Shown here piece by piece: positions 3,342 through 54,920 of a DNA stretch of 64,000 bases. Origin of the DNA: Daucus carota subsp. sativus (lineage: Eukaryota; Streptophyta; Magnoliopsida; Apiales; Apiaceae); the NCBI RefSeq assembly GCF_001625215.2, contig NC_030386.2, positions 37,947,296 through 38,011,295 of the forward strand, given 5' to 3'. A model generated the notes under the pieces. It was given only the letters and a program-made list of their open reading frames with translations. It did not search any database and was not told the origin of the DNA. Every line of letters starts with the position of its first letter. The first letter of the stretch is position 1. Both the position numbers and the translations under genes were made by a program.

Positions 3342-3605
3342 TACTCCCTCCGTTTCTTTTTTCTTTTCTTGTTTGTGATGTCGGTACCGTTCATAACATG
3401 AGATAAATTACTAATTTACATCTAATCTATAAAACTAAATATAATCATGAGTCATCTTGTTAGATTCGTATTCACAAGTACTTTAATACGATGAAATTTT
3501 TATATTTAATGCTACTACAAAATGAAAGATATTAACGATCAAAAGTACGTGTTGGCAAACATGAAAAGTACAAACAGGAAAAGGTATTTAGAGACAGAGC
3601 GAGTA
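3342..3605. mobile_element. Stowaway-like MITE, diverged right end
   Basis: The left end is TA followed by CTCCCTCCGTTTC, the classic Stowaway (Tc1/mariner) terminus. The right end near 3590-3605 reads GAGACAGAGCGAGTA, a decayed inverse of the same terminus followed by TA. Length is about 260 bp, typical of the family. Confidence 0.6.
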
Positions 3606-3807
3606 TAGATTAATAGGGGCCAGTTTAGTGATCAAAGTCTAAAGACAATCAGGGGGCCATTTGGTGTGAATGTGCGATCAAGTGTTTGTCTCATTGACTT
3701 GTAGGCTACTAGCACTCGAATTAGGCATTAATATGTAATATGTTTAATATTTGTTAAATTTGTGGATACTGATTTGAAAAATCTATTTTAATGATTTTTA
3801 ATATCAC

Positions 3808-4290
3808 TGTGAAGATGCACAGTTAGGTGCTACATTTTATTTTTTCATTGTGATCGAACCTAAACATGTGCTCGAGAGATAATTGTCCGTACACTGATAA
3901 TAGATACATGGATTCTCGAGAAAAGAGGGGTCATGGTGGTCTCCTCGGACCGCCCGGATCTCACGAGTGAATCGAAAGTTGGATCTCACCTAAATCGTCT
4001 CATCTATCTTTTTGAGGAAAAATTTAGTTTCAAACTCCGGTTCAAACAGGAAAGAGTACGCCATGTTGATGTGCCCGGACACAATGATGCAATTATGAGG
4101 GTCGCGCTCTACCACTGAGCTAATAGCCCGTTGGGAGTCCGCCATGCCAAAAGCGAGAGAAACCCATCCCCTCTTTCCTTTTTTCGTCCTCATATCGCCA
4201 CATGATGATAGGACGATGTAAAAAAAGATCCTATCAACTTGTTTAGACCTCGGATAAAAAGCTCATGAGATTAGTCTTATTCCACCGTTC
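3808..4290 (-). other. Nuclear plastid DNA insertion (NUPT): rrn16-trnI spacer plus trnI-GAU intron
   Basis: Read on the minus strand this follows the plastid rRNA operon: spacer between rrn16 and trnI (AAGTTGATAGGATC, then GGTTTCTCTCGCTTTTGGCAT), the 5' exon of trnI-GAU, then trnI group II intron sequence (GTACTC, the GGATCCGGGCGGTCC-like block, CTCTCGAGCAC, TAGCACCTAAC). Similarity is from memory of plastid genomes and is strong across the whole length with scattered substitutions, many of them C to T or G to A, as expected after transfer. A piece between two GTGCC-like repeats, covering the exon-intron junction, is deleted. Confidence 0.88.
4093..4129 (-). pseudogene. trnI-GAU 5' exon fragment (plastid-derived)
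   Basis: The 37-nt 5' half of plastid tRNA-Ile(GAU) is recognisable: GGGCTATTAGCTCAGTGGTA gives the acceptor strand and D arm. The 3' exon is absent from the window, so no tRNA can form. The anticodon position reads CAT in place of GAT, one of several substitutions. Confidence 0.85.
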
Positions 4291-6655: not shown

Positions 6656-7897
6656 CTAGGGATCAAGAGCAGAGCGTAAAACAGGTGGGGGTAAAATGGT
6701 ATTATTACTATGATGATGATTCGTAGTATCAGAAACCCAAGCCAACCACCTCGAAACGAAGCCCTCTTGCTGTCTCTGTCTTTGCTGTTGTACCTCATTA
6801 CTCATCAACCTCTTCCTACTTATTATTTCCGACACACTTCTCTCTTTATTTACCATTTTGCCACTCCCCCCCTCGCTTCTCTCCGACGCCGCCGACACTC
6901 TCCGGCTCTCGCTCATCAACATCTCCGACTTTATGTAGAGCAAGTCCGACGGCCTGACGTCGCTCCATCGCTGGTGGCTGACGTCGGCGGAGGAGACTAT
7001 GATGCGGTGGTGGAGACGATGGTCTAGTTGGTGGCTTGTTTCGAGCAAGAGCTCGTCTTTTCGGGGCTTTTCGAAGCAGCCGATTGAGACGGAGCTTGAT
7101 ACTACTTGTTTACCCGATGTTATTGAACTGTCGAGGGAGAGACGGGAGGTTATTTGTTTTTGGACGGTGATTTGGAGGGGTTTGGTGGTGCCCTTTTCGC
7201 CGGCTGAGGAGTGGCGGCCAGATGTTCGATGAAATGCCGCAATGAGTTCTTGATCTTGGAGGGGGTTGAGTTGGGGCTGGTTTTGAGGGAGGATTGTGGG
7301 TTTGTTGTGCTCGATTAAGAGCACGTCTTCGGGCTCGACTCGGTGGCGACAGAGTGGGCAAGTGGAGTGAGCGTCTAGCCATGTGTCGAGACATTCAACG
7401 TGGAATGCGTGCTTGCATTTTGGGAGTAATCGTAGGACTTCTGAGGGCTCGTAGTTTGTTAAGCAGACCGCGCATTCTAGTCCGTCTTTTTGGCCTTTGA
7501 GTGAGCTGAAGCGGAAGACTGGGAGGAGGTCTATGATGTTAGGGTCGATTCCGGAGTTTTTACGATGAGTGTAAGGGTCTGTGCTGGTTCTTGAATTGCT
7601 GGGGTAGGCATCATTTGCGGTTTTGCAGTGTTTGATATAGAGAAATATGAGGAATGTGATGGAGAAAGCGGAGATAATTGCACCCACAATTATGTGTATG
7701 CTTGGTTTCAATGGCGGTTTGTTTTGATTCTGGCTCGAATTCAAATTCGAATTCTCATTCTGGGGTAATGGTGGAGATAACACAGGAGGGCTGGAGTTGG
7801 ATGAAGAAGCAATGGAATCATTTTTTGCTTGAGAGAGAACAAGGGTTAGAGTGAGGCAAAGTAAAATGCACAAAAGCCTGATCATTAGGAAAATCAA
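6656..7897 (-). CDS. ATL: ATL-family RING-H2 finger E3 ubiquitin ligase
   Basis: This is a single-exon gene of 413 codons. It has a hydrophobic signal segment (residues 1-22), a Ser/Pro/Asn-rich stretch, a transmembrane helix (about 67-88) and the GLD-type motif SGIDPNIIDLLPVF (115-128). The RING-H2 domain has all eight zinc ligands: C142, C145, C161, H163, H166, C169, C180 and C183. The tryptophan in DTWL, three residues after the sixth ligand, contacts E2 enzymes in this family. The long C-terminal tail (about 230 residues) is Ser/Arg/Gln-rich, which suits the longer ATL members (ATL42-like) rather than the short ones. It should attach ubiquitin to substrates at a membrane; substrates are unknown. 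A second ATG at codon 5 is possible. Intronless structure is normal for ATLs. Confidence 0.93.
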   Translation of the reverse strand: MIFLMIRLLCILLCLTLTLVLSQAKNDSIASSSNSSPPVLSPPLPQNENSNLNSSQNQNKPPLKPSIHIIVGAIISAFSITFLIFLYIKHCKTANDAYPSNSRTSTDPYTHRKNSGIDPNIIDLLPVFRFSSLKGQKDGLECAVCLTNYEPSEVLRLLPKCKHAFHVECLDTWLDAHSTCPLCRHRVEPEDVLLIEHNKPTILPQNQPQLNPLQDQELIAAFHRTSGRHSSAGEKGTTKPLQITVQKQITSRLSLDSSITSGKQVVSSSVSIGCFEKPRKDELLLETSHQLDHRLHHRIIVSSADVSHQRWSDVRPSDLLYIKSEMLMSESRRVSAASERSEGGSGKMVNKERSVSEIISRKRLMSNEVQQQRQRQQEGFVSRWLAWVSDTTNHHHSNNTILPPPVLRSALDP

Positions 7898-9392
7898 TGA
7901 GGTTCTTGAAAGCCACTAACCCTGGCCCTTGTTGGCAAAGGAAGAAGAACCCAAAAGTGCAGTGAATCTTAAATGATGATAGTATAATAAGTAAGGGAAG
8001 CTGGGAAAAATGCATAAAAAGAATGAATGAGAAGGATGGCTTGGTTGGTATGTGGGGGATAGAGGTATTAAGATTCTGAGAGATGGGTTTTCACAAGAAA
8101 GATAGATACAAAAGTAGGCAAAGGACAAAACCCATCCAACTGACTTGGTTTGGGCCAGGTTTTGGTGGAGGTTGGGAAAACCAAGAATAGTGGAAATAGA
8201 CATGACATTTTTTATAAGAAAATGAAAAAGAAGAATGGCATGTAGTTGTCTTCTCAAGAAAAGATAGTCTCTTTTCCCCTTCACTTTATGGAGGACAAAG
8301 AAGCTTCAACTCTGGTAGAATTCCAATCAAAAAGCCAGGCTACAAGAGACACAATCTTAGCTTTAGTCTAGAGATACCTATCTCAAGGCCTATAAACAAA
8401 TGAAGGAGAAGGTGGTGATAAGACAGCAGTGGAGTTGAGTTGAGTTGGTTTGTTATGGGATTTCAGGAGTGGAGTGTAGAAAGTAGCAACAGGATGAATC
8501 AAAAAAGGGAACTATTTTTTAACAAAGTGGGCTAAAAAGAGGCATCCACTTGAGCTATTTAGTGTGTTTTGTAGTGAAATGTAATGTTACTGATGTATGT
8601 TTTGTAGCTTGTTCAAGAACTGTTTCCATGTGAGAGGTGTGTCACATGTTTGGTGCTCTACTGATGAGCTAGCCTAACTGCAAATTGGCCCCTGATGAGG
8701 CGTCTCTGTGGTAATTACTCGTGACCAATCAATTTCATGTGCTTCTCGCTTGTTGGATTTTACTTGTTTGCAACAGAGGCCATGTCATTCAATACTTAAA
8801 TCAGTAAGAACGTGAATCTTTGAATTAATAATTATGGAAGGGAGGCCAGGAATATATTTCATCATTTTTTTAATAAATAATGTCGTGCACTGTGACCAAA
8901 TTAAGTAACAAAGAAGCATATCTTTACGGTGATGATTAAATGACGATTAATTAGACCCGTAAGTACAAGATTTTTTTTTCTTCAAAATAATTAAATGAAG
9001 CTTACATATTTTTATAAAGATGATTAAATGACATGACAAATTAGATTCGTGAATGCACAATCCTCTTTTTAAAGTAGTTGAATGAATGTAGTTATTGAAC
9101 TGAACCTAGTGGTAGTACGGAGATTGTATGTTCGGTTATGTTTTAGAGAATTTAATATTGACAATAAATAGTATTTTAATTGTTGCTTTATTAAACTGAA
9201 CCTCGTATACTCGTATAATAAAATTTCTAAACAGTAATACTCCTATCATTTAATATTCTAATAATTATAAAAAATTATTATAAATATAATATTTATGTGA
9301 ATTATATATCATTGAAATCATAATTTATTTTATTATAAACATATTATTTTGTTAAAATATTCTTACAGAGCGATCCCACTGTACCGTGGGAT
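7898..9392. other. Upstream region of the ATL gene
   Basis: On the minus strand 7900-8480 is pyrimidine-rich (many CTT and TCC runs), typical of a plant 5' leader or core promoter. Open frames here, such as 7916-8284, look like leader sequence without protein features. From about 8500 to 9390 the DNA is AT-rich and I see nothing further. Confidence 0.4.
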
Positions 9393-19960: not shown

Positions 19961-21388
19961 TTAGATTCCACGGAGAGATATTTCCAACTGCTCTATTTTC
20001 TTGGCAAGATCATGCTTTCCACAAGTCTTTAATCCATCAGTAACCATGTCGAAGTTTCTAGACAAGGGTGATAAGTTTAGCTCAGTCATCTCTACCAAAT
20101 AATTACCAGCCTCAACAAATCTACTGCCACGTACAGACATTCTTATTAGCATGGTATAAACTGGTCGATTTGGTGGATGCCCCTTTACCTTCATATCACT
20201 GAAAAAGCTATAAGCATCGTCAAACTGTCCTCTCCTACACAGACCCTTCAATATAGGAGCGTACAAACTAGGAAACGGCTTGTGTCCGTCCTCGATAGAT
20301 TTATGAAGAACTGCAATAGCGTCATCAATCTTATCTGCTTTTGAAGCTGCCATGATCATAATCTTATAGGTATCAATATCCGGAGAAAACCCCAATCTAC
20401 AAACTGCATGGTAAATATCAATGCAAAAACCTAACTCCCCAGATTTGCATACAGCTTCTGCTAGAGAGTTAAACGTTGCAACATCTGGCACAAAACCTTC
20501 TTTGGTCATTTTCCTCACCAACCCTTTTGCTGATTCGATATAGCCTGCATTTAACAACCCATCAATCAATAGATCCCGGCCACGGACAGGTGGGTTGAAC
20601 CCCTTCTGGCTCATCTCTTCAAGAAATTCTTGAGCTTCTTTCAACTTCCCTGCAGAGCACCATCCATTCACTAGAACAGAGTATGTCTTTTTGTCTGGGA
20701 CTCCACCTTTTCGGACCATTCTCCGAATCAATGCATAAGCACCTTGGAAGTTCTTGACCTCACAGAGGGCATATAGCAATGAGTTGTATATTTCAGTAGT
20801 TTGGGGGCAGTTGAAGTTCTTCAGTCGATTGAAGAGCTCAACAGCCTGGTCTATGAGACCATGTTTACCATATTGGTCTATGATGTATGATACAACTGAT
20901 GGTGATAACGGTATTTCTTGGGTCTTCATTTGGTGCGCAACCTTCCACATAGTTTCCCAACACTTAGTCCGAGCAAGAGTCTTCAGAAGTTCTTCAAACT
21001 CAAGTGTGGTTGGGTCATACTGAGGATGTTGGGTCCGCGCCCAATTAAAAAACCGAAACGACTCAGATCCACAATGACAACAATTACGGAGCACACGATA
21101 CACCAACTCAGAATTGACTATACGAGATATACACATTTTATTGAGCGTTCTCTCCATGTAAATGTCACGACGAACCACATTTGATATATGATGTACAGTC
21201 GCAAAGTAATCATCATTTGAAACTCCCCCACCGCCTCTAACTTTACTACCCTCATTATCTTTAAAAACGGGACTTGTCATGGCACCAAAACTTCTATACA
21301 CAACAGCATTGGCTCTTGTAACATTCAAAACCCTCTCGTAAAAACAGAGTCTTGCGCGAACCAGCATCTTCTCGAAGCTATAATCCAT
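19961..21388 (-). CDS. P-class pentatricopeptide repeat (PPR) protein
   Basis: An intronless ORF encodes an N-terminal presequence followed by about nine to ten 35-residue PPR motifs with the usual register, for example EIYNSLLYALCEVKNFQGAY, KTYSVLVNGWCSAGKLKEAQ and PVYTMLIRMSVRGSRFVEAG. There is no E, DYW or SMR tail, so it is P class. The order and wording resemble Arabidopsis At5g18390, a predicted mitochondrial PPR protein; this is recognition, not a search result. PPR proteins bind organelle RNA one base per repeat and act in stability, splicing or translation. The frame also has an ATG at 21421, eleven codons earlier; 21388 (MDYSFEKMLVRARLC) is preferred because the Arg-containing, acid-poor start suits a targeting peptide. 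An upstream 5' UTR exon ends in a GT donor at 21693. Confidence 0.92.
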   Translation of the reverse strand: MDYSFEKMLVRARLCFYERVLNVTRANAVVYRSFGAMTSPVFKDNEGSKVRGGGGVSNDDYFATVHHISNVVRRDIYMERTLNKMCISRIVNSELVYRVLRNCCHCGSESFRFFNWARTQHPQYDPTTLEFEELLKTLARTKCWETMWKVAHQMKTQEIPLSPSVVSYIIDQYGKHGLIDQAVELFNRLKNFNCPQTTEIYNSLLYALCEVKNFQGAYALIRRMVRKGGVPDKKTYSVLVNGWCSAGKLKEAQEFLEEMSQKGFNPPVRGRDLLIDGLLNAGYIESAKGLVRKMTKEGFVPDVATFNSLAEAVCKSGELGFCIDIYHAVCRLGFSPDIDTYKIMIMAASKADKIDDAIAVLHKSIEDGHKPFPSLYAPILKGLCRRGQFDDAYSFFSDMKVKGHPPNRPVYTMLIRMSVRGSRFVEAGNYLVEMTELNLSPLSRNFDMVTDGLKTCGKHDLAKKIEQLEISLRGI

Positions 21389-21693
21389 TATAGTGCACAC
21401 AAAAAAAAAACCAATGAACACTAGTTGGATACAATATGATGTTCAATTGCTTCATCAATTCTTCCAAACAATAATATATAAACACAATCAATAATGTCTA
21501 ATAAACACTAACCCATTCATATCTCTATCAGAAATTAATAGGCCCATATACAATAATGCAAATGAGTACATATTTAAGCAAGAACACAAATATTGGGCAC
21601 AAATGTAAATTTATCAAACATTTGATAAGAAAAGTGTGATTATCTATAACGGTCGAAGATTAAAGCGAAAAAGATAGATACGTACAGTTACCT

Positions 21694-26643: not shown

Positions 26644-29600
26644 ATGGCTGTTTCCATGAGAGATTTGGATTCAGCCTTTCAAGGAGCTGGGCAGAAGGCG
26701 TATCCTTTGGTTTACAATTATTTTTCTTGCATCATATATAAACATCTCTGTCTCCATTCTGCTACATTTGCATATGAATTCCCCTTCACAGGTATCTTAA
26801 ATTTTTAGCATTGCTGTAGAAAGTATAGGTGGGTGGTCGTTTCTGCAAGAGAATTGCTCTTTACTCTTTATACAAATGCAGCTAAATTTCTGTTGTTGTG
26901 CCAGTTAAAGCATATGGTTTATATTTTCCTGTTTTTCTACTGGAAATTTTTCGTGCTATCCTTGATATTGTATAGCGGGCTAGAGATTTGGCGCATTGAG
27001 AATTTTCGCCCGGTACCAGTGTCGAAAACTTTACATGGAAAGTTTTTTACTGGGGATTCATACGTGATTTTGAAGGTGATTGCTTCAATAGATTACATAA
27101 ATGTTTTTCTATCTTTCCATGTAATTATATGAATTGGTTTATTTCTTAACTAAATAGCTCTAAAAGAATGAATATATCTGTTATCCTCCTTTATTGACTA
27201 TTATGGCGTTGCATGTCTATGTCATTTGCTAATTTGCTTTGAGCTCTCTAAAATGTCTCACAATTTTGTGCATTTTATTACTCACTCTTATGGGCATCTA
27301 ATGGTAAAATATAACACCGTAGTCAATTCCTTTCTGTTTCACATTTTATTTATTATGAGGTTAATCCTGCGTACTTATTGCAGACAACTGCCTTAAAAAG
27401 TGGCGCCCTACGTAATGATATTCATTATTGGATAGGTAAAGATTGTAGTCAAGTAAGTACTTACATCCATGGCTTTCAAATCTTCTAATCAGAAATATAT
27501 AGTTACCGTTGAAGCTAAAATGCTGTTGTATATAGGATGAAGCTGGAACAGCAGCAATAAAGACTGTTGAACTGGATGCAGTTCTTGGAGGGCGTGCTGT
27601 TCAATATCGGGAAGTGCAAGGCCATGAAACTGAGAAATTTCTTTCTTATTTTAAACCATGTATCATACCTCAAGAAGGCGGAGTTGCATCTGGATTTAAA
27701 CATGCTGAAGCTGAAGAATATAAGACTCGTTTATATGTGTGCAGAGGCAAGCATGTTGTTCAAGTGAAAGAGGCAAGTCTGATACTGCTTTAGTGGCCAG
27801 GGCATTTTAATAAGTTATGCCAGTTTTAAGCCAGCCTCTATGTTATTTCCAGGTTGCCTTTGCTCGATCCTCTCTCAATCATGACGACATATTTATACTT
27901 GATACGGCGTCTAAGATTTTTCAGTTTAATGGTTCCAACTCATCTATACAAGAGAGAGCTAAAGCATTGGAAGTAGTTCAGTACATTAAAGATACGTATC
28001 ATGATGGAAAATGTGAGATAGCTGCCATTGGTAAGTGGATAATCACTATAAATAGGAGATGCTAGCTAAATAATGCTAAGCATTAAAATAATTTCCTTTT
28101 AATTATGTCTAGAGGATGGGAGACTAATGGCTGATGCTGATACTGGAGAATTCTGGGGTTTATTTGGTGGATTTGCTCCATTGCCAAGAAAATCGGCCGC
28201 CGAAGACGCTAATAATATTTCTGATGTTCCTACAAGACTTTTTGGGTACAAAATCCTCCTCTTGCTGATTTTATTCTTGCGTTGTAGTCATGCATTGTAT
28301 TCCCATATATCCAATTTGCTTATCGATCTATATATCTTGTAGTTATGATCTACCATCTCCTTAATACTTATTCTCATCTTTGTAAGGCTTCTAGACATAT
28401 ATGATTATATGCATTTTTATAAAATGAATACAGTATACAGAAAAAGCAAGATTTGATAGTCATTTACCACATAGTTATACCTATTCTTACAGTCACGTGT
28501 TTGTTCTTTTAAGTATTGTTAAGGGGCAGCATGAACCTATGGATGTGGATTCCTTGAAGAGGGAGCTGCTCGACACTTATAAATGTTATCTATTGGATTG
28601 TGGGTCAGAAGTCTTTGTGTGGATTGGAAGAAATACTTCTCTTGATGAGCGCAAAAGTGCAAGTGGAGCTGGAGAGGTACTGCCTCATTATGCTTGTTTA
28701 CTTTCGCTTCTTAATATTTATTATGCAAATCCCGCCATCCATTCACTGTAATAATTGCATTCTATAGGAATTACTTCGTACCGTTCCTCGGCCGAAAACT
28801 CATATAATTCGTGTAATGGAGGGATTTGAGACAGTTATGTTCAGATCAAAATTTGATTCTTGGCCTCAGTCAACAGATGTAACAGTATCTGAGGATGGTA
28901 GAAGCAAGGTTGCTGGTGAGTTAACATTCCACTATTGCTTCTAGTACCCAGGGATACATTATTACAATAGATGCTGTATAACTTCCTATTCTAATTTGTA
29001 TACAATCTGCTTTTATTGGTATTCTGATGTTGTCAAGTTTCGTCTTAATCATTATGTAGCACTTCTGAAACGCCAAGGGCTGAATGTGAAAGGCCTGCAG
29101 AAAGCTACTCCCACTAAAGAAGAGCCTCAACCTTATATCGACTGCACAGGAAACTTACAGGTATTGGCAAGAAAGATAGTAAGTCTGCTAAAACTGAATG
29201 ATTGCTAAATGAATCATAGGAGCAGGAGAAGTAGGTAGAGTAGTCAACTGATGGGGAAAATGCTACCGAATAAGTTAATGGCATTGAACTTCTAGGCATG
29301 TTTATTCATTATTTGTAGTCATCTTACAGATATTCTCGCTCGTATCCATTCTTGTCACGGTGCTCGACTAGTCATTTCCAAGGGTTGACTGAAGAGGTCG
29401 ACTAACAAATTGTTGAAAAGTCAGTTGACTTGGGCGACTAGGCGGCCAACTTCTGGACTAGTTGATTGACTGGTGCAAAATCTCATCCAAATTGAATAAA
29501 ATTATTAACGTATTTAATAGAATCCTAATCAACAGAAGCAACTATAGCATGCACATACTAATCACTATTCTTCCTCTCGCCTTTATTCGCTGTTGAAACA

Positions 29601-40608: not shown

Positions 40609-40635
40609 CTAGTTGTCAAAGCCGCGCTTCGCGGC
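40609..40635 (-). other. Helitron 3' terminus: hairpin plus CTAG
   Basis: On the minus strand GCCGCG AAG CGCGGC forms a 6-bp perfect GC stem with a 3-base loop, then TTTGACAA, then CTAG and a flanking T. This is the terminator structure of Helitron rolling-circle transposition. Confidence 0.92.
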
Positions 40636-40901
40636 GGCATAAAATAGTTATTCATAAATTATGAAATAGAATATTATAAAGAAGTTGTAATAATAGTGGC
40701 GCAAATATTGTAGAAATACGTAAAAGATGAAAATTTTAATATAATGTAAAATAAACTATCCACTACTGAAACCAAATAGCAGTTACCTCAAATTGTATGA
40801 TTGAGACTAAGTAATGTTATCGTATCTAAATCTTAAATTTAAAAATAGGCTTGTATAGAATTAAATTTAAAAATAGGCTTGTATAGAACAATGTTTGATT
40901 T

Positions 40902-43715
40902 CTAATTTGCGTCTCCATTATCATTAGCAGCATCATCATCATCATCATCATCATCCAGCACCACCATCTTCCTCCTTTTCCTAACCTCGACAGTAGGTTT
41001 CACTTCACCTTCCACCTTGTTGCCGCCACTTTCCTCTGCGTCATCTATCATGCTTGCTTTCCTTTTCCCACATTCGCGAGGAGGTTCCATTCCATCATTG
41101 CATGTGAGTTTGTCTTTGACATTGGCACGAATCTACATATATTAAATTGTGTTAGAACTAACAGTAAATAGGATATCAATATCGGGAGGAAGATACTTTC
41201 ATTATATAGTTATTAACTATGAACATACCTCAAGGGCCTTCTTTGACTCATATTCATGTTCCAAACACTTCCTTGGCTCATATATCTCAGACACGGTGTA
41301 GTTTGCATATCCTTGTTTGAAGTTATAATGATTCAATCTCAACCTGTATATGAATTCCTTGCCTATAAGTGTATTTAGCTCTTTGGGAAGATCACTATCG
41401 CCGGAAGTCAATTTATTAACCAATTTTTTGGCGGAAGTGTCGAGTAAGCGCTCGACTATGTTGTTGAATAAAGTGAGAGTTGTAGTTCCAGTGTGATCTT
41501 TAATGTGTACGTGTACTTTGAACCTGCAAGTGCAAGAATTGAAATGTAAATTGAATACGTCAAACATGAATCTCTAACGCATACCGAGAGAGTAAGACAA
41601 CTTACATCACAAGAGGATAATCAATAATTTTGTTACAGCACTTGTAATCTCCGTCCTCTGCTTCGACTTTTTTCCCACATGATTTGCAGGCTACATAGTA
41701 CCACCCAAATTGGTTATCGATCTCAAATATCTCCCCTCTCACGGTAACAACATATTCCTGTTTAGACGTTTACAAAATGTAATATCAGTTACCGTACGGA
41801 GCATATATGTCAAGGTGTATGTTGTTAGAAGTTGGCAACGAAAAAGTGTTACCTTCAGATCCTCACTCCACTTGGAATCCACCAGCTCTTTAATACTCAT
41901 CCGGTGAAAGAACATCTTTTCTTCGAGTGTGTATTTATTTGAATTAGAGCTCTCAATAAACTTCAATTTTGTAGAGTGTCGTGCAAATCTCTCTCGGAGT
42001 GTCATCACATATGGGATGTCCAAATTCATGTATATCTTGCTGTTGTTTGTTGAGTTGAAAGAGACGGCACCTGTCATGATATCATTGAGATGTAAGATGA
42101 TTGGAATTAAGCTAAGCATATGTATGTTGGTTTTTGCCTCTACTTAATAAGTCCTTTTTATAATTTTTGTAATTTTTTGACAGGATATAGATAAATAGCT
42201 AAAGAATAGTAATCAATGTAATTCTAAGTAGTTAAGAAATATTAATCTTAACAGAAATATAATAGTTAAAAATTATGAAATTCTAAGTAGTTAATAAGTA
42301 GGAATATTAAAAGAGAAGAGAGATAATTCTAAACAGTTAAGAAATAGTAATCATAAAAGAAATATAATAAATAAAATCTATGAAATTCTAAGTGGTTAAG
42401 AAATAGGAATGTTAAAAGAAATATAATAGTTAAAATATACGAATTAAACATGAATATAATTATTATTGTTTTAAAAGAAATATAATTATTAAGAAACATG
42501 AATCATAAATCAAAAAAGTGAATACTTTAATTTGACGTGGCGTTTCTAGAAGAATTGGATTTAATCTTATAATTTTCTTAATTAAATTTATAATAAAAGA
42601 TAATATTATAATCTAAAAATCATAAAAGGAGTAGAATTATATTTATTGCTTAGAATCCCATTTATTATTTAGAAAAGGAATAGAATTATATTTATTTAAT
42701 AGAACAGTCACAGAACAAATATATATGTCATGTTAAAAGGAACTCCATTGGTGGTTGTTACCTTTGAATTTCTTAATTGTCGTTGATGTAACAATTATGA
42801 TATGAGGGCCGTCTTCTTCTTTGTATATTTTTGGGTCGAACTGCTCGATGTGCTTTCCCCACAGAGTAATAGTTGCATTGACTGAGCTGTTGAAAATTAG
42901 AAAATTGGATTCATTAGCTGTCTGTGAATAAAGCATACACATATAATAGATTTGGGTAGTTTGTTGATGGTCGGAAGAGCGTGTGTTTTTGGTTCTATAT
43001 ACTGTGTATAACTTACTGGTTTGTTATGATATGAAGATCTCTCTTCTTCCAGTTGTTCCCTACGATATCAACTTCGCCAATACCAGACAGAAGACCCACA
43101 ACATCTGCACCATTATCATAGAATGAATATTAGTTTTGTAATGGTTGGATGTCCAATTATGCTGATAGATTTCTCCGTGAATGCGTATGTAAATAGATTT
43201 GCTTTAAACCTGTTAGTATAGCTGGGTCATTCAATCTTGATTCAATGTCATCAGGCATCACAAACTGGAAGCCATGCCTTGGAATCTGAACAGTGTCTTC
43301 TTGAAGCTTTTTCGGGGATGTTGTAGCTAAGAATATGCACTTGAATTCACTTGAGAGAGGCCTGTAATCTCCTGTAGCTTTTACGACTTGCAGATTTTTG
43401 ATGCTATAAGTCGATCCTTCCTGCAGAAGATGTCTAAAGCGAGAAGCTAGGTGTTTCTTGATTGTTGCATGCATGAGGTTTTCCTGCAACAAAGACTCAA
43501 TGTATATAACTCTGGTGGGTGTAATCTTAAATAGATGTAATTTGCAGATATATATAATCATGTGGACATACCTTCTCGTCGATGAATATCATGTCAATAC
43601 TAATGAGTTCCCCATTTTTCTGAGGATTGGTTGAATCCCAGAGTCTGCAGATCCTTACCCTGATTCTCCAGGTGTCATGAGTGTCGTTTAAATCTTTCAA
43701 CATAGTGTATTCCAT
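40902..43715 (-). CDS. Helitron-encoded RPA70-like single-stranded-DNA-binding protein
   Basis: Eight exons join in phase to 508 codons: 43715-43572, 43483-43210, 43104-43017, 42886-42762, 42070-41853, 41757-41606, 41523-41229, 41132-40902. The order of OB folds follows the large subunit of replication protein A: an N-terminal DNA-binding fold (WRIRVRICRLWDSTNP; GELISIDMIFIDEK), a second (VGLLSGIGEVDIVGNNW, ATITLWGKHIEQFDP) and a third zinc-containing fold (WYYVACKSCGKKVEAEDG, YKCC, FKVHVHIKDHTGTTTLTLFN). The usual CxxC...CxxC ribbon is altered to CxxC...CC. The tail has a bipartite basic signal (KRK, RKRRK) and an Asp run encoded by an ATC/GAT microsatellite. Many plant Helitrons carry such RPA genes, thought to protect single strands during transposition. 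It ends 290 bp from the Helitron 3' end. Confidence 0.9.
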
Positions 43716-45763
43716 TGTTAAGGGTATGATGGTTTGCTGTATAAAAATCGAGGTGCTGTGTGTTATATGTAGGGCTGGTTGTACATGAGTTGGTTATATA
43801 GAGGTTTTTTTAAACAGAAGAGTAGTCAGAATTGTGCATGGAATCAGACTTCTGTGTGGACTCTGTTTTCTAATCATGGGGAAGTAGTTTTCTAATAAGG
43901 CTTGAACTTGTTTTAATGTAACTGCGAAGTCTAATCACGTTAGGTTCATATTATTATCCTAGTCAGGAGTGTGGGATGTTCTTCTAGTCAATCACTATGA
44001 AGGAATGAAAATAAATATAACAAAAAACCCCTCAGAGCACTGATAGGATTTGATCAATATTCAAGTTCTAAGCTGCATTAAAGAGCCATGCCATGCCTTA
44101 CTTTTTTCTGATTCTGATGCTCTGAGGTTGGCAAGTTAGATTTAGTGATGCAAATAGAAACCGGAAACAAATAATGCATATAGTGTTTAATTTATTTTTA
44201 AAAATAAAACGAAGTTGCTGTATATATTTCAATAGTTTAATAAATTGTTATAAATAATTCTTTTGTCAAAACTTTTTTAAATTTTAAAAAACATGTATAT
44301 TAAACAGGGTTTGTTTTTATTTTGATTTTTTTGCGACACAAATAGGTTATAATTTATTTTTAATAGAATATTTACATCGATTATGAAATTTAATATGGTA
44401 AATTTTTTAGGTTTCTCATAAAGTTTTTTGAATAATACATTAAAAATGTATATTATTTCTCACATTTATTTTTGAATTAGTAAAATACCTATATTTTATT
44501 TTTACATTAGTAGTTGGAAGATATGCTTTTATTTGTTTTTTAAATATTTTGTTTAACTGTCAAAATTGCTTAGATATTTTGCGATATAATTGGATAAGAA
44601 ATATAGAATTCTTGTCAATAGAATAGAAATAATAAATTTGTAAGCTTCGATTATTGAATTAATTAATGATTTTGGTGTTCATAAAAATATGTTGACTACA
44701 AATGACAAAATTTTCTTAAACATATTGTCCAAAATGTATTGACATTTAATTAATATATTATCATATATTTAATTATGTTATGTGTGACCATTAATTATAT
44801 ACTGTAGGTGTGTGTTATTCACTGACTTTAGATTTTTAAGGTTTGTAGAATTCTTGTATTGTGGAAAAAAATGCAAAGGAATCTTATATGGTTTCACATA
44901 TAAATGGCCACATTAATCACGTGGAAGCAAAATTTTTTTTTAAACAAAATAGTATTGAAGCCATCTGGATAGGGAAATTGTACTCAGTGATTAGCTGAAG
45001 CTTCCTTAAAGGTCATCAATATGTATAGAGATAAAACTCCGTGGCTGCATTACTATCCCTGTGCAATCATAGAACAAAATATGCGGACATTATGTGGCAT
45101 CTCTACTATCATTTTTCCATCAGAAACCACTAACATAAGTTAGATTTCAGAAGATGTTTAAATCTCTATTAGAGCATAGACGTTTTGCTCCAAATAGGAA
45201 TCTTGCAGCATAAATTGCAGCACTGGACATCCCAGTAGTTTGATGTAGAGATATGATCAAAAGAAAATAAAATTATAAAGTTTGTCTTACATTAGTAGAG
45301 AGTCAGGATTTCTATAATGCTCACATAATGAGTACATTAAAGGGAGAATATATGTGTAAGACAAATTGCCACATTTATCATAAAACCAATGCTTGTTTTG
45401 GGATAATTTGACATTTCCGCTTCATAATCTTCATTTCTAAACTTCTCCGGTATTGAGGATGTTATCACCCTCCTATCAGCAGCATGGAAAAACAAATGAA
45501 AGCATTAGGATAATATGAATACAAGTATGAAACATATATAAACACCAATCCTGTGTCAAATATTTCAATTTTCATATACTATCAAAAGAATATTCCTGAA
45601 GATAAAGAGGAAATAAGCTATTAAGTTTGAGGATTAATTAGGCAAATGATCATAATCTAAAATTTTATGTTTAAGTCCGTCGTGAAGTAACAATAGTTTA
45701 GACATATTTCCTTCTCCAGTAACATATAACTGAAGGCAACATGGTGTATAATATAAGTCTTAG
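43716..45763. other. Helitron non-coding region between RPA and Rep-helicase genes
   Basis: This must hold the RPA promoter and the Rep-helicase 3' UTR. It is AT-rich and I see no further gene or captured host exon. Confidence 0.45.
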
Positions 45764-48700
45764 TTAGGAGAGTTGGCGTACCTCTGTGTTTTCGATACAT
45801 GGTGTAATATCCTCGAGAACTTCTTTGTAAACAATATTCTTTACAAAGGTTCTATCCGCCATTTCTTTATCAGCATTCATAATGATGAGTCCTTGTCTTG
45901 ATGTCGCTCGAGATATAGCAACATAATACTGGCCATGACCGAAAACTTGGTTTGGAAGATACAGGCCGACGTGTTTGAGAGATTGTCCCTGGCTTTTATT
46001 GATTGTCATGACAAAACAGGGTGATACTGGTAGTTGTCTTCTGTTTAGTTTGAATGGCAATTTTGAATCGGTTGGGGACATAATAATCCGTGGTATTGTG
46101 ACGTTCTGGCCTACATGTGTGCCTGAGATAATATCAGCCCTGATTGACCATTTGCCTAAACGGGTGATAAGCAATCTAGTTCCATTGCACAAACCTTCTG
46201 TCTGGTTTAAGTTTCTGAGTAACATCACCGGAGTCCCTTCCTTCAGTTGTATGTCATGATTGGGAACACCGGGGAATTTCAAGCTGTGTAAAAATTCTGA
46301 TGTACACAATTGGTCGTTATGTTCAGTTTTCATGCTTGCTTTGCATATGCTGTCCGAGCTCAGATATGTTCTGCTTTCTCCAGGAATTGTACTCATAATC
46401 ATCTCATTCAACTCATGGACTGTTTCGTTTTTTGGTGTCAGTATTGCTCGTTCTGTCAAATATTCTGGATCATTATATTTCTGCAAAAGAGAGGGATAGA
46501 TAGCTTGGATTATAGCTTTCATTGGATCTTCACATGGGTCTCCGCACAAATCTGGTGGTATTTTGACCAGTTCTCTGTCTATATCATCATAATTCGATCC
46601 ATTTCCTATTTGTAACATCCAGTTGTCAAATGTCGCAATCTCTTCTTTATCAGCCTCGCTTATTTTTCCACTATGGAGCCTCATATTCTGATTCAGCTCG
46701 TATACTCTGAAGTGTGGCCATAGATAAGATGAAATTAGGGATGCATCAATAATTTCATCTTTTGTTCCTTTGGGAACTACGGGTAATATTTGACGAAAAT
46801 CGCCCCCACATACTATTGTAAGCCCACCAAACGGCTTATCGGTGCTATGCTCAAATCTGGTTCTTAGGATATCCCTCAAGGACTTGTCCAGAGCTTCAAA
46901 ACAAAATTTATTTGTCATCGGTGCTTCATCCCAGATGATTAAAGAGGTCTTGAGCAGTAGTTTAGCTAAAGGGCTTCCGTGGCGAATCTCACAAGTTGAC
47001 TCTGCTGTGATGTCAAGTGGGATATGGAAACGTGAATGGGCTGTCCTTCCATTAGGCATCAACAATGCTGCTATACCTGCAGTTGCAACAGGCAATACAA
47101 TTTGCGATCTTGATCTTAGGTTTGAAATAATTGTGTTCCATAAATAGGTCTTTCCAGTACCACCATGGCCGCTAATGAAAAATAATCTTCCTTCGTCATT
47201 CTCAACAGATTTTAATATTGCTTCATAAGCTACTTTTTGGCAAGTGTTCAGAGCAGCATACAGATTTTCATGTTGTACCTTTAGTTTTGCAGTGTCATAA
47301 TCCAGCTCTTCATTCACCAACCTGTTGCTTGAATCACTTAGTAATGATGTGTTAGGTTGAGGCATTCCGTCTATGTCTCTTAAACTTTTTCCAGACTTCT
47401 GCATTAGAGTTTCTAGTTCGACCAATGTATATGCTTCTACCTGTTCTTCAGTCAGTTTGAGCCCTTTGTTGTTGAATCTTTTCCTGTGTAGTGACGTTAT
47501 ATCTTCTGACAATGCAATGAAGCAATTTTTCCAAAGATGTGATGCGTCTGAAACTTGACAGTGTATGAGGATGGTGACAAATAGATTGCGCAGTTCATTG
47601 CCAGTTGCCCAGCCTGCAGCTTCATTCAAGCAGTCAATCCATTCTTTGTCATCATCCAGGAGTCCCAAAGCATAACATGCAGCTTTATAAGTTTTATACG
47701 TTACCCCATTCACCGTCCTTATACATTTGAAGGAAGTGCTACCTTTGACAAAGTTGAGAAGCATGCGCATGTAAAACCTCTCTCCAGATGAAGGATGAGC
47801 AAAATAAATTCTGCCAACTGATATGCCTTTTTTTCTCCTTGTCCATATTTTTTCTTTGGCGTTCCAAACCCAACGTGTTGGAAAATCTGAATAAGTCAAT
47901 TGACGCGCATCCTCGTGAATTTTGTTCGTTTCTAGCCATTCTGTGAACTTGGTTTTGTCTACTCCGGGTCTATTAAGGACATTCTCGACACACTTGTCTT
48001 CTTCGAATATTATTGTATGTTCACCAGGGAGGTGGAAAGGTAATCTTTCAACTGATGGATGTCTATGATTTATGTCAAACTGGAAGATTCTCCAGCAAGC
48101 TTCAGCGGCTGATATGTATCTACAATCAAGGTATGCTTTGATCTCATCTATTCGTTCAACTGTATCAATGGATTCAAATGTGGCATTTGCTCTATCTGGC
48201 CCTTTGTTGACGTACTTGAATAGATACTTTATGGACCTTGAATAATTGCAGACTTCAATATTGATATGTGCATCAAATTTGACAATTAAATTCCTGTTGT
48301 AAGGAACCACAAAACGATTGTCTAAAAATTTACCATTTTTCTTGATATGAATACCGGTGTTCCGTCTCTTGTATATCGGGAATCCATCAGAATCAAATGT
48401 TGTCTTGTCGTTGTATTTCTTTGGAAAGTGTTTTGTACACTTGCCGTTTGCCATACACGGGGAGTTTTTGTTGAGCTTTCCACATGGTCCATGAAGCATA
48501 AAGTTTTTCACTGCATTATACCCATCAGGATCAACATTGAAGTCCGGAATTTCAGCGCTTACAATTTCATCGATTCGTGATGCTGTAGGATTTTTCATTA
48601 CCGGATCCAAGAAGAGTAGAATGTGTGCATGCGGTAAGCCTCTTTTCTGAAATTCAATTGTGTATAAACCTGTAATAACAATATATAATACAATAATTAG

Positions 48701-49547
48701 TAAACGTTAAATAGATTTAACTAAATAATTGAGTATTTCCCATTCTGATCATATTAACACAGGCATAACATAAATTGTTTACCCTTGTCCATGTTTTTCC
48801 ATTGAATTGAAATATAACATAAGATCTATTGACATATTTAAAATTACCAGGCTTCAAAAGCCTTCTATATTGTTCCCAAACAGTTTTGTGGATTCACATG
48901 GCTGCAAATATGACCAGCAACAAAATTTTGTTTGTTAATATGTAAAAAGTTGAGCTTTTGAAAGAAACTATATTTTGTTAACAGTTGTGTAGTTTAGTAG
49001 TGTTAAGCCATTAATGACCCGCGCTGATTTCAAGAAAACTCTTTATAGTTCCATGCAAGTCTCGTATTTTTTGTACACTTTCCTACTCATTTTTAAGTAC
49101 TTATGATAAAGCGACAGTGATACTGATTGATCCTGAGCCGGAGCTGGTTGAGAATATGTAGTCTGCACAACAGGTTGTGCACCATAAGATGCAGCAAGAG
49201 CATTGCTATAGGCTGGATCTTCAGTCCCTTGATATGCTCATAAGCAACGGTTTTTAAGATTGCCTAGCATGTTATTATATATTCTGCGTTTGTTGGTCCC
49301 CAGGTTTTATGCTGATTAGATGATTATTTTTATTGGTTATTATTAACTCAAATTCCAACCTAAACTACACAATCAAAGCTGTAGTTTTATATAAGAGGGG
49401 CTAGAAACAGGTTTATGGTTTGTCTTGAAACATTAGTGCAGGTATTTAATTTATGAGAATGATTAAACCTGTGTAGAATCTGGTAATTATGGTTGTAGTG
49501 TGCAGAGTTGTTTTTTTTTTTGCCACGAAAGAGTTGTTTTTGTTTAA

Positions 49548-49601
<54 letters not shown>

Positions 49602-52600
49602 TAGATAGCCTTTTAGTTCTCTAGATATGAAATGTGTAGTTATTTTGATTCACAGGGCTGATTTGTCATAAAGATACAGGGAAAACATAAACTGGAAAAA
49701 AGAAAGTGCATTATTATAAGCTATAGTTATTGGTGGACAATTCTCTACGCCTCTATTTATATTATAAGCTTGTAATTACATAGATAGAGACGAAGCATGA
49801 TTTATTTTCTTTTCACACAATATAGGTTACTCAACATAAAAGAGGTTGATGAATTGGATACACACAAAAACATTAAAGGCTACTACTGAAAGGAAAAGAA
49901 CTTACTTGCAATTATTTTTCCAAATGGTTTTTCTTTCTTCAGATCTTGCATTAGTTGGAGTAGTTTTATGTGGAAAACCCGGCATATGATATCCAACCTA
50001 TTGTTGTCATCTTTCTGCCCAATTAATTCCAGCATGTAATTTATTTCTGGCCACTTCGGGTTGCAGGTAAAAGTTATAAAAAGATCTGGATAACCCGCCC
50101 ACTTGCAAATAGCCATTGCATCTTGATAATTTTGTACTCTGTATCTGGGGGCCCCGGTGTGTGATGAAGGCAGGATAATTGACTTCCCCACTCTTGAACA
50201 ATTCGAATCACCTCTATGAACGGCATCCATTAGTCCTGAGTAGAGGTCTGACCTTAATTTATTTTGATTCAGTCGTATCCAGCGAAATCTCTCTTCTTCA
50301 ATTGTCATGTAACAATCCACTATATATTGTTGCAGGAGTCTGCCGCTTCGAAGAAGAGTGTGACCCTCATTCAATCTTTGTTGTAATCTAAAGCAATAAT
50401 ACTGGCACATTGTTAAATTTTTTCCATCTCTTAAAGTTATTCCAAGTCTATATCCATCTTCACCATAGGGATGTATTAATGGATATGTCATGGCCATGTA
50501 GCTTGGATGTAAATCACTTATTTGTTCTGGACCGCGAGTTTTGTGGTGTACAATAACATCACGTTTATAGTTTTTCTTATCAATATCACCCACAATCAAG
50601 CCACCTATCTCGGAACTTGTAGGCATGTCATATTGCCGACCATCTTGAGCTCTGTTGCCAGGAATTCGCAATTGAAAGGAAGTTTCTGGTCCATTTTTAT
50701 ATCTGTCTCGAGCCTTCCTGAAGGATTCAACCAAATGATTTTTTTCATCCAGCATTCTAGATATTTGAGAGACAATTTCTTCATCAATGTCTTCATTGGG
50801 ACCATTCTTTTCCATTGTTGCTATTCTATTTCTAACTTCATTTTCAGTGTCGTAGATATAGAGCTGTGCATATTTTGGTCGTTGATCTTTTTCCGGGATT
50901 AATGAACCAATAAAATGAATATTTACACCACTTACTCGAAACACAAACGGACCTCTCCTTCTATTTATAGCACTGTCGACTCGGACTCCCAAAGATGTCA
51001 TTGCAAACATGCAGTTATAAGCCCTTATGTTTTCCATGAATTTGATTCCCTTCTTTCCAGATTCAGGTGATTGCAAGTACTTGAGTAATTCTGGTGGTTG
51101 CCTAAGTAATGGTATCTGCACACGTCCTTCCGTGCAACAAAATGTAAACTTTGGTTGTAAAGGAGTGCGTGTTTTTTCAATCCGTTCTTCATACCATAAC
51201 ATGGCACCACAATATGTGCATACATATGTAGGTGGTCCAAAGTTCCATGGCTTTTTGTAAACCCCTGTTGATTGATGAAATGAGAATATTATGAGTACAT
51301 GTTAATTAAACTAACCTACAAATTCAGTATTTTTATATTACATTTAATAATATTGGGTACTATATGTGATATGGAAGCAAGAGCATACATTCAATAACTA
51401 TAATAAATGGCTGCAAAGACCGGTTAAAAAACTTGTTTAAACTGACCATTGAATCTATGTGCAGTCTCGGATGTATTTGCTTCCGGTAGTGTAGACTCCA
51501 GTTCCATTTGGGTAGAATTTTGTCCAATATTTTCTGCAATAAATTTAAAGAGGATACTTAATTAAATTAGCCTACAAATTAAATTACAAAAAAACTTGTA
51601 GATACATCAATATTTTTATATTACATTTAATAATATTGGGTACTATATGTGATACAGAAGCAAGAGCATACATTCAATAACTATAATAAATGGCTGCAAA
51701 GACCGGTTAAAAAACTTGTTTAAACTGACCATTGAATTTATGTGCAGTCTCGGATGTATCTGCTTCCGGTAGTGTAGACTCCAGTTCCATTTGGGTAGAA
51801 TTTTGTCCAATATTTTCTGCAATAAATTTAAAGAGGATACTTAAATAAATTAGACTACAAATTGAATCACAAAAAAACTTGTAGATACATCAATATTTTT
51901 ATATTACATTTAATAATATTGGGTACTATATGTGATACAGAAGCAAGAGCATACATTCAATAACTATAATAAATGGCCGCAAAGACCGGTTAAAAAACTT
52001 GTTTAAACTGACCATTGAATCTATATGCAGTCCTGGATGTATCTGCTTCCGGTAGTGTAGATTCCAGTTCCATTTGGGTAGAATTTTGTCCAATATTTTC
52101 TGCAATAAATTTAAAGAGGATACTTAAATACACGTTCTAATCATGTATGTTTATATTCATTTATAGTTATTTTTGTGACTATTAGTTTCTAAAATTATAC
52201 AAAGATATATTCACATATAAGCTTGCAACCGAAAAGAAATTTATAAATAATTATAATACCAACAGAACTTGTTTAAAACTGACCATTGAATCTATTTGCA
52301 GTCGTAGATGGATTTGCTTCAGGCCGTATAGAATCCACTTCCATTGGGGTAGAATTTTGTCCAATATCATCTGTTAAAAATTTGAAGAGGATTGTTAAAT
52401 ACATGTCCTGCTCATGTATGCTGATATTTATATATAATTATTTTTATTACAATTATTTTCTAGAATTATACAATTTTTATGTTAATATATAAGCTTGCAA
52501 CTGAAAAGAAATTTATAGTTTGTTGACTTTACCATTTCTTTCAAATGATTCAGTAGGAGTCTGAAGAATCATTGCCCTCATTGTACGTGTGTAGTATTTG

Positions 52601-52842
52601 ACAATTATGTCCATGGAACTGATGCGTTGTTGCAGGTCATTTTTGAATCTATTCTGGATGAGTGAAATTTTCCGTCTAAATCGTGAATGCTTGCATATCT
52701 TCTTCTCTATGAGCGTTTTGTTATGATTGGCACGTGATGGATGCTTCTTAATCTGCATTTTAAGAATCCTTTCTTGGCGTGCTAAAGCTGAGATATGTCT
52801 TCGCAAATGTTGCGTTTGTGTGGAGATATCATATCCATCCAT
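45764..52842 (-). CDS. Helitron Rep-helicase (HUH/Y2 Rep plus PIF1-like helicase)
   Basis: Seven exons join in phase to 1640 residues: 52842-52533, four 87-nt repeats (52370-52284, 52099-52013, 51816-51730, 51533-51447), 51264-49906, 48669-45764. Exon 1 is a basic, helical N-terminus. The four repeats each add 29 residues (NIGQNSTQMELESTLPEANT core). Exon 6 begins with a zinc-ribbon-like CTYCG and holds the Helitron-like N domain (FITFTCNPKWPEI). The last exon starts within Rep: LYTIEFQKRGLPHAHILLFL has the HUH metal site (H686, H688) and YLFKYVNKG the two catalytic tyrosines (Y821, Y825). The helicase has Walker A GHGGTGKT (about 1173-1180), Walker B IIWDEAP (about 1250), GGDFRQILPVV and a C-terminal NKSQGQSL...YVAISRA. 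All key residues are present, and no stop or frameshift interrupts the model. It should nick, unwind and rejoin the Helitron strand. Confidence 0.93.
49551..49599. repeat. (TA)n microsatellite in the Rep-helicase intron
   Basis: About 24 uninterrupted TA units lie in the 1.2-kb intron that splits the Rep domain (49905-48670). Length is likely polymorphic. Confidence 0.9.
51340..52380 (-). repeat. Tandem 283-bp repeat: four copies of one Rep exon
   Basis: Each unit carries an 87-nt exon with its own acceptor (TGCAG or AACAG) and donor (AATG|GTCAG). Exon starts are spaced 283, 283 and 271 bp apart. The three units nearest the Rep domain (51447, 51730, 52013) are nearly identical, including their introns; the upstream one (52284-52370) is clearly diverged (GATGATATTGG start) and is probably the ancestral exon. 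All exon ends are phase 1, so any number of copies keeps the frame. Confidence 0.92.
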
Positions 52843-54918
52843 AGTTGAATGTAAAAATTCTGTATTCTGTAAAAAATAAGTTAAAAATATTGTCAGAAAA
52901 ATGCTCTGCCATACTGTAACACTGATCATAACTGAGCAAGCAATATAATCGAATAACAGGAAGATCTATTGCAATTTCACAACACAACATGAATGACAAC
53001 AGGGCACGATGGGCATGTCAAAATACAATATTTATTATGAGTACATGATGCAGCATTTAGTTTTTAAACCTTAAAAGTTCAGAATAATTAAAAACTGACA
53101 CATGGCAGAGCCCTGTCTGAAGTGTTGTATTTGCTCAGTTTCTGCAGTTGTGAGCATCATTAATAGAGGATCTTCTTTTCTTAATATGCCAGCATTGGTA
53201 TGACAGATTAATCAGATACATCACTGACCAAGTAACGGACATTGGGGATCAAACTGTTGAATAAATTCTTAAAGAACATAATGTAAATAAAGCGTAATAT
53301 AATATGTACATAAGATTCTATCTAGTTATTTTTATTTTAAACATCAGCTTTGAGATTGTGATACATAATTTAGAAGTCTAATAAGGTTGCTCACACTTTT
53401 ACTGAACTCTCAGGGATTAAGTGAAGGAAGAACGGTTGTTGCAAGGCGCAAAGGCAAACTGGAAAGATTGATTAGGTGGGTCGGAACCTTTTCAACTCAG
53501 AAAAGCGTTTGTTGGTTACCTTATGAGATAAGGATGTCATCCATTTATACGGCTTGAGACTTCTGACCAGCTTTTGTGTACATTCATTATTTTGTAGACA
53601 AAGATTATATACAGGGATATGCTTATACAAAAAAATAAATGATCAATGCTTTAGATTTGAAGCTGTAAGTGGGTGTCTGGATAATAGGAGGCCGGGTTCC
53701 TTAGTCCCTTTCAGTTTTTAAATAGAGTGCTATTGTGTAAGTAGTTATTATCAATAAATAGCAGCTACATGGACCATAGTTCTATATGGTTTTACCTCTT
53801 TACGACATTCATCTCGGTCTTTAGTAAATATCTTTTCGAGGTTAATAAAAACTTGATTTTGCTGACTTACAGAATCACACAAATAGAGAGGCCTCTGGTA
53901 TGGCCTGTGGTATCCCTGTTTTAGTGTTTGAATACATGTGTGCTAGAGTTATCGCAGGAACTAAACATATCATGTATTTCAGATAAATAACTCTCTTTTT
54001 AACAAATAATATCCTCACTTTGTTCCAAACTTCTGTTAAACTGTCTTGTAGAATCGATTCCCAGAGGCCGGAAATAATCAATATTAAGCTAACCTTGACA
54101 TTAAGCTAACCTAGACAATTACACAAACAGCTTGCAGTAACCAACATTCAACAAACCTTTAAATTGATTGAGAAAAACATAGAGATTATTATGAGCAGAA
54201 AACAGGAACAGGTGGTGATTTTAGACTATGCTTGCTGCAAACTTAAGTCTCTTCAATCAATATTTTCTCACATAAAGATTATCTAAAATTCATATTCCAA
54301 TAAAACTGACCAGGTGCATCACATACCAGTTGTTTCATCAAATAGCACTTGCCAATCGGCAGGAACAGGCGAAGAAGCTGGTGGTTCCAAGTTCAAAGAA
54401 GAATCAACAGGTCTTTCCCATTGACTTATCCCAGACTTTTCATTATAGTAATAAAGTCAACCGCTTGCAGGATCACATGCCTCAATCTACATTATGAAGT
54501 AGACAAAATTACAATATTAGTAGAAAAAGGAAGAATGACGGGCCCTGCGAAAAAATAAGTTTGTATACATATTTGATACAAATTTATGTGGAAACTTTAA
54601 TAAAATAAAATTGAATAAAATAAAATTGAAGATAAAATTTTAGTTATGTTATAAATCTTCAATATATAAATATATAAAGAATTTTATTACTTTTAGAATT
54701 TGATAAAAAAGAATTGTATTACCTTTAAAATTCGATTCGATAAAAAAGGAGTGTATGACCTTTAGAATTCGATAAGAAAATAATTGTATTACTTTTAGAA
54801 TTCTTGGACCTTATTTTTTTGAATTAGAGTTATATTTTCTCTCCGAAATTCAAGAAAAATCAGAAGACTGAATCGAGCAATTCTGGAGACGCCCGCATCC
54901 TCCTTTATATATATATAT
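52843..54918. other. Helitron 5' region, no gene recognised
   Basis: A splice acceptor-like TTTTTTACAG precedes the Rep start at about 52871, so a leader intron is possible. ORFs at 53875-54081 and 54349-54558 have no recognisable product. No captured host gene is evident. Confidence 0.45.
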
Positions 54919-54920
54919 GA

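Follow-up and report, generated by a model that had tools for sequence, protein, structure and literature searches.

We analyzed a 64,000-nt window of carrot (Daucus carota subsp. sativus) DNA, located at C6:37947296-38011295 in a 441-Mb assembly of 11 contigs, which are denoted below as C1, C2 and so on. The window contains a 14,312-bp Helitron on the minus strand that carries a RepHel gene and an RPA-like gene; it is very probably a coding-complete plant Helitron that was mobile in carrot until recently. A first-pass annotation of the window had placed a Helitron with a 5ʹ TC, a 3ʹ hairpin plus CTAG and A and T flanks at this locus, and its coordinates proved exact. The element and its termini are as follows.

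40609..54920, minus strand: complete Helitron of 14,312 bp at C6:37987904-38002215, delimited by its ends; the 3ʹ end is also fixed by the C3 copy
54891..54920, minus strand: 5ʹ (left) terminal sequence TCATATATATATATAAAGGAGGATGCGGGC
40609..40638, minus strand: 3ʹ (right) terminal sequence GCCGCCGCGAAGCGCGGCTTTGACAACTAG, with the hairpin at 40621-40635 and CTAG at 40609-40612

Read along the minus strand, the element starts behind a host A with TCATATATATATATAAAGGAGGATGCGGGCG and finishes with GCCGCGAAGCGCGGC-TTTGACAA-CTAG in front of a host T. The TC at 54920-54919 and the CTAG at 40612-40609 are the 5ʹ TC and 3ʹ CTRR ends expected of a Helitron. The hairpin consists of a 6-bp GCCGCG/CGCGGC stem and a 3-nt loop, and lies 8 nt before CTAG and 12 nt before the end of the element, where a GC-rich hairpin is expected 10-15 bp from a Helitron 3ʹ end. 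C6 shows the A/TC and CTAG/T junctions of an insertion between A and T without target duplication, and the copy on C3 is compatible with it.

When the window was scanned for a GC-rich hairpin followed by CTRR-T, one match per strand was obtained, the element's own and one at plus-strand position 23817. Ten crude 2-mer shuffles gave 0, 0, 0, 2, 0, 0, 0, 1, 0 and 0 matches. Because the shuffles also gave matches (3 in all), the 3ʹ end is only mildly unusual by the hairpin scan alone. The C3 copy is decisive here and settles the 3ʹ end independently: read by eye, its last 39 bp are identical to those in the window, and the flanks diverge beyond CTAG/T. Its 5ʹ end reads TCAATATA... versus TCATATA... 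in the window, with the same 26-bp core and 92% identity over the first 137 bp. The exact first base of the C3 copy is ambiguous because TC recurs just upstream there.

The two genes were modeled by choosing exons by hand, with reading frame and splice signals as guides. The RepHel model has seven exons and encodes 1640 amino acids.

52533..52842, minus strand: exon 1, with the predicted start
52284..52370, minus strand: exon 2, 87-bp mini-exon
52013..52099, minus strand: exon 3, 87-bp mini-exon
51730..51816, minus strand: exon 4, 87-bp mini-exon
51447..51533, minus strand: exon 5, 87-bp mini-exon
49906..51264, minus strand: exon 6, zinc-finger-like motif and Rep motif 1
45764..48669, minus strand: exon 7, HUH (H686, H688), Y2 (Y821, Y825) and Pif1-type SF1 helicase
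51324..52172, minus strand: 283-bp tandem units containing mini-exons 3-5

The RPA-like model has eight exons and encodes 508 amino acids.

43572..43715, minus strand: exon 1
43210..43483, minus strand: exon 2
43017..43104, minus strand: exon 3
42762..42886, minus strand: exon 4
41853..42070, minus strand: exon 5
41606..41757, minus strand: exon 6
41229..41523, minus strand: exon 7
40902..41132, minus strand: exon 8

In both genes all introns are GT-AG, the coding length is a multiple of three and the only stop is the terminal one. The fifteen in-frame exons claimed in the first-pass annotation were thus recovered, and neither stops nor frameshifts were found at the genome level. Stop-to-stop frames of 980 and 472 codons in the element are the first and third longest in the window.

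RepHel matched the Pfam families Helitron_like_N (189.6 bits), PIF1 (296 bits) and Pif1_2B (76.1 bits). The HUH motif, the two tyrosines and the SF1B (Pif1) helicase motifs that characterize Helitrons are intact in it, as had been claimed, judging by motif columns in 16 proteins hand-picked among the 120 listed of 5691 matches (listed protein P0001 being RepHel itself). Some of the compared homologues are without catalytic residues; the second tyrosine, for example, is absent in P0061 and P0030. P0001 is the annotated carrot protein LOC108226331, which consists of 1271 amino acids, is 100% identical to the RepHel core and matches the exon 6-7 junction of the model. The RPA partner, likewise as claimed, matched DUF223 (67.3 bits), Rep_fac-A_C (59.1 bits) and REPA_OB_2 (27.1 bits, cut-off 27). 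With these domains and existing homologues it is the extra RPA-like gene (PHRPA) of the plant Helitron lineage.

The linker before the zinc-finger-like motif holds four in-frame tandem 87-bp mini-exons (window 51324-52517), and the C3 copy has one unit more. Comparison of the tandem units gave 2, 5 and 5 differences of 87 in the exons and 4, 1 and 5 of 153 in the introns, with no signal of constraint. The heat-response motif known from the wheat element Feng8 was sought in the 2,078-bp 5ʹ region, and a single TTCnnGAA was found versus 0.75 expected from base shuffles, which gives no evidence for such a motif here.

A sister copy and distant relatives

The second copy, at C3:5483059 to about 5497579, has the same exact 3ʹ end, 5ʹ core and interior. 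Across 13,886 aligned bases the two copies differ by 137 substitutions (74 transitions and 63 transversions; Kimura two-parameter distance 0.0099) and 14 gaps. Compared with the window copy, C3 lacks 419 bp and has extra pieces of 95 and 473 bp; the 473-bp piece is a further mini-exon-like unit and was excluded from the exon projection. With plant substitution rates of between 7e-9 and 1.3e-8 per site and year, the distance of 0.0099 would place the separation of the two copies at roughly 0.4-0.7 million years ago. Since the C3 copy is only about 1% diverged, the family appears to have moved fairly recently; with the open frames, this agrees with the proposal in the first-pass annotation of a candidate active or recently active element.

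In the C3 copy, RepHel is open over the window exon model, and RPA contains one in-frame stop, which lies in a stretch omitted by the annotated C3 protein. Apart from the regions around exons 5 and 7-8, the modeled RPA junctions match those of that protein. The protein DCAR_0310434 (P0121) shares the five single-residue differences shown by the C3 copy and is most likely its RPA. Both LOC108226331 and DCAR_0310434 carry the names uncharacterized or hypothetical protein, with neither Helitron ends nor a gene pair annotated in the names and sequences examined.

Divergence between C6 and C3 was 0.61% in RepHel coding sequence and 0.39% in RPA versus 1.36% in non-coding sequence. In the RepHel core (residues 372-1640), nine replacement and eight silent changes gave a ratio of replacement to silent rates (dN/dS) of 0.30 with an uncorrected p of 0.015, the core being one of five partitions tried and split near the annotated protein start at residue 370. 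This suggests a mild excess of silent change in the core.

A search of the assembly with RepHel exon 6 gave 23 DNA matches, of which only those at C6 and C3 were complete and near-identical. Partial matches of 609 bp at 99% and 966 bp at 92% were found on C4 (48.73 Mb) and C8 (12.2 Mb), respectively, and the remaining 19 were 67-89% identical and mostly short. The C4 copy matches element bases 3-4265. Among 168 Helitron_like_N matches in the genome, nearly all are distant from the element in DNA. Of eight other carrot Helitron gene loci (L001-L008), only L006 matched the element at E <= 1e-8, and this through TA repeats; several of the eight gave short 67-74% matches in the exon 6 search. Further Helitron_like_N clusters lie at C5:46.80-47.00 Mb, where frames are open, and at C7:22.65-22.66 Mb, where they are partly stopped; these match the element by short stretches of 73-74% DNA identity only.

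Ends shared across the carrot genome

End patterns were searched genome-wide with up to one mismatch, using reversed patterns as control; all controls gave 0 places. The 5ʹ core TATATAAAGGAGGATGCGGGCGTCTC was found at 491 places. The element's 3ʹ end with its T (31 bp) was found at 7 places, all exact and including C6 and C3, and another 3ʹ end, ...CTTTTTTCACTAGT, at 354. Independent copies with the same ends, as expected of a Helitron and of an element that shares its termini with other copies, are thus present as the full-length C3 copy and as repeated 3ʹ and 5ʹ ends.

At 26 of 30 bases the two 3ʹ ends are identical, as are the hairpin and the 21 nt around it. Helitrons of one family are at least 80% identical in their terminal 30 bp, and by this rule the two ends belong together. 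A wheat study (PMC13286980) defines Helitron families by 30-bp ends. A search with the 3ʹ 100 bp gave 40 matches. Besides the element and C3 (97%), these comprise 38 with identities of 77-89%, or 95% for one 44-bp stretch. With the 5ʹ 120 bp, 40 of 916 candidates were scored; of the 46 matches listed, 43 (the element among them) were at least 93% identical.

Pairing of the ends was counted on C1 and C2, among the places listed there as exact. For 20 of 37 exact second-type 3ʹ ends, the same strand carried an exact 5ʹ core no more than 10 kb upstream, with spans of 1175-4707 bp; the opposite-strand control gave 1 of 37, and 0.13 in all were expected by chance. Counted from the 5ʹ side within 25 kb (C1, C3, C4 and C5), 9 of 22 ends were paired on the same strand and none on the opposite one; some of these ends are neighbours that share one 3ʹ end. 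Judging by their spans, the end-sharing elements would be short and non-coding, interiors having been read only for the C8 and C4 regions.

At C1:29394496, C1:35434337 and C2:58859412, a 5ʹ end stands directly behind CTAG at the same offset in all three. These head-to-tail joins look like rolling-circle concatemers. Similar joins with a shortened CTAG occur at C8:1944544 and C8:1947903.

Apparently captured carrot sequence and neighbouring genes

Three stretches of the element matched carrot gene regions; the genome comparison that covered the first of them kept matches of at least 100 bp.

54299..54531, minus strand: apparently captured WW-domain exon with intron edges, 95.7% identical to C4:37964920-37965152
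49133..49250, minus strand: apparently captured exon piece in RepHel intron 6, 90.8% identical to C4:40551358-40551476
48829..49108, minus strand: apparently captured piece in RepHel intron 6, 238 + 44 bp, about 88.6% identical to C1:18703192-18703552

The WW domain scored 35.7 bits on a 45-residue piece of the first stretch. This exon has an in-frame stop in the element and an open frame in the C4 donor, where WW-like coding sequence follows downstream; copies on C3 and C8 and at two places on C4 contain parts of the exon as well. By-eye reading of nearby open reading frames (ORFs) suggests a KH-domain-like source for 49133..49250, and for the C1 source a position antisense within a nucleotide-sugar-transporter-like gene. 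Both intron-6 captures are probably older, because they are 88-91% identical to their sources; C3 carries bases 48990-49300 at 99%. In all three cases, capture would have proceeded from host to element. The WW exon and the intron-6 fragment were also considered as one captured gene and rejected: the fused search gave one candidate and no match, and the genome search pointed to different sources.

The insertion site had been named villin-epimerase. Two aldose-1-epimerase ORFs on one flank scored 43.3 and 25.7 bits (cut-off 27, the second just below). On the other flank, villin was the earlier annotation's name for an ORF at 27814-28062 whose match (42.7 bits) is a gelsolin repeat. Uninterrupted ORFs with PPR repeats (19964-21442, minus strand) and RING-H2 (6659-7915, minus strand) are ordinary host genes. 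The plus-strand match at 23817, in which a fully paired CCCGTGC/GCACGGG hairpin precedes CTAAT by 8 nt, may be the 3ʹ terminus of another Helitron.

At the carrot Y2 locus, a Helitron is reported in DCAR_730022, and the figure legend gives a 17-kb insertion (PMC10581907). A search for Cyclin_D1_bind gave five matches, of which that at C7:38992106-38992360 has one stop. This domain (PF12014) presumably marks EXECUTER1-like proteins. Neither an end of the element's family nor similarity to RepHel, RPA or the element's DNA was found in the 20 kb around C7:38992106. A link to the Y2 locus is neither shown nor excluded by this result; the insertion may lie outside the 20 kb, or the gene may differ.

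Proposed mobility of the element and its place among plant Helitrons

By the mechanism established for Helitrons, RepHel would use its Y2/HUH nuclease at the 5ʹ TC end, nicking the host strand, and its Pif1-type helicase to unwind the DNA, and the element's own RPA-like protein would hold the single strands. The rolling circle would stop at the 3ʹ hairpin and CTAG, and the resulting circle or strand would be pasted into a 5ʹ-A^T-3ʹ site with no target duplication. The same proteins may also have moved a family, several hundred strong, whose members have the 5ʹ end and 3ʹ hairpin in common.

The closest parallels come from published work on wheat and rice. In the wheat Xuan-Feng family, activity of the autonomous driver Feng8 was demonstrated by circles and new insertions (PMC13286980). 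Like the carrot element, Feng8 has a hairpin and the ends TC and CTAG, inserts at AT, and encodes a seven-exon transposase (1676 versus 1640 amino acids) whose N-terminal domain includes a zinc-finger-like motif and whose HxH and Y-x3-Y motifs show an HUH-Y2 spacing of 135 in both (H767-Y902 in wheat, H686-Y821 in carrot). Few coding copies (Feng1-8) stand beside many non-autonomous ones (Xuan1-77) there as well. Feng8 is proven to move, whereas the carrot element is a candidate; the text compared mentions no RPA gene for Feng8 (PMC13286980), and the tandem mini-exons and the gene pieces in an intron are the carrot element's. Rice Mothra, described with the plant Helitron RPA, shares an eight-exon RPA-like gene, high-copy short elements with the ends of a coding element, a captured gene fragment and tandem repeats. 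Its putative mother element, however, has RPA without RepHel, while the carrot element has both (PMC4683698).

Several observations weigh against a coding-complete and recently mobile element, or against its role in moving the relatives. The annotated carrot protein spans only residues 370-1640 of the RepHel model, therefore exons 1-5 are predictions. Residues 1-371 carry 12 replacement changes and one silent change, and for whole RepHel dN/dS was 0.63 (p 0.26), not different from 1. We compared 248 columns, each at least 95% conserved in 119 homologues (the 120 listed minus P0001); RepHel departs at 5 of them, four in common with C3, versus a median of 3, and ranks 87 of 120 (rank 1 being the cleanest), so the test did not show the window RepHel to be unusually clean among these homologues. 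The exact 3ʹ end occurs at 7 places only, and the numerous relatives carry the slightly different one. No exact 5ʹ core lay within 10 kb of 17 of the 37 second-type 3ʹ ends, and 13 of the 22 5ʹ ends were unpaired within 25 kb.

Some of these points would fit a recently inserted copy that is now dead or silenced, its frames open through youth only and its activity ended by a missense change or promoter loss. Residue 440, at a conserved column, is changed in the window copy alone, the whole-protein dN/dS is non-significant, the sister on C3 has already lost its RPA frame, and RepHel exon 6 was found complete and near-identical at just two places in the assembly. On the other hand, no catalytic motif is affected, no frame is lost and the splice sites are intact, and we regard this explanation as a serious one that falls somewhat short of probable.

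About equally plausible is that a different autonomous Helitron drives the several hundred elements that finish in the other 3ʹ sequence, the window element sharing an ancestral 5ʹ end only. Their 3ʹ end departs from that of the window element at 4 of its last 30 bases, and the 168 Helitron_like_N matches, nearly all distant in DNA, may include other drivers; the identical hairpin and surrounding 21 nt and the near-identity of the listed 5ʹ 120-bp matches speak against it. The copy number differing between 5ʹ and 3ʹ ends could also suggest coding genes captured into an unrelated element owning the ends, but this is very improbable and largely refuted, since the same ends and interior recur on C3 at another site, whereby the whole element moves as a unit, and RPA beside RepHel is usual in plant Helitrons (PMC4683698).

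We tentatively suggest, as possible and somewhat less than an even prospect, that the element or its immediate ancestor is the driver of a carrot family of several hundred Helitrons, tolerates the 4-base difference next to CTAG, is still able to move, and carries captured exons upstream of RepHel and in a RepHel intron. The driver may have been the window copy itself rather than an ancestor shared with its relatives.

A literature search, supplements not covered, found no publication on this carrot element. Helitrons of this kind are known; the C3 sister copy, the genome-wide end counts and pairing, and the three apparent captures of gene-like sequence are new. The most interesting new point is that several hundred places in carrot share the element's ends. 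To the best of our knowledge, proven active plant Helitrons are very few, wheat Feng8 among them. A coding-complete element, a sister diverged by about 1% and several hundred candidate substrate ends would provide a dicot crop in which trans-mobilization, end recognition and gene capture can be tested, and with likely source regions of the captured stretches identified, capture would be datable and its junctions readable.

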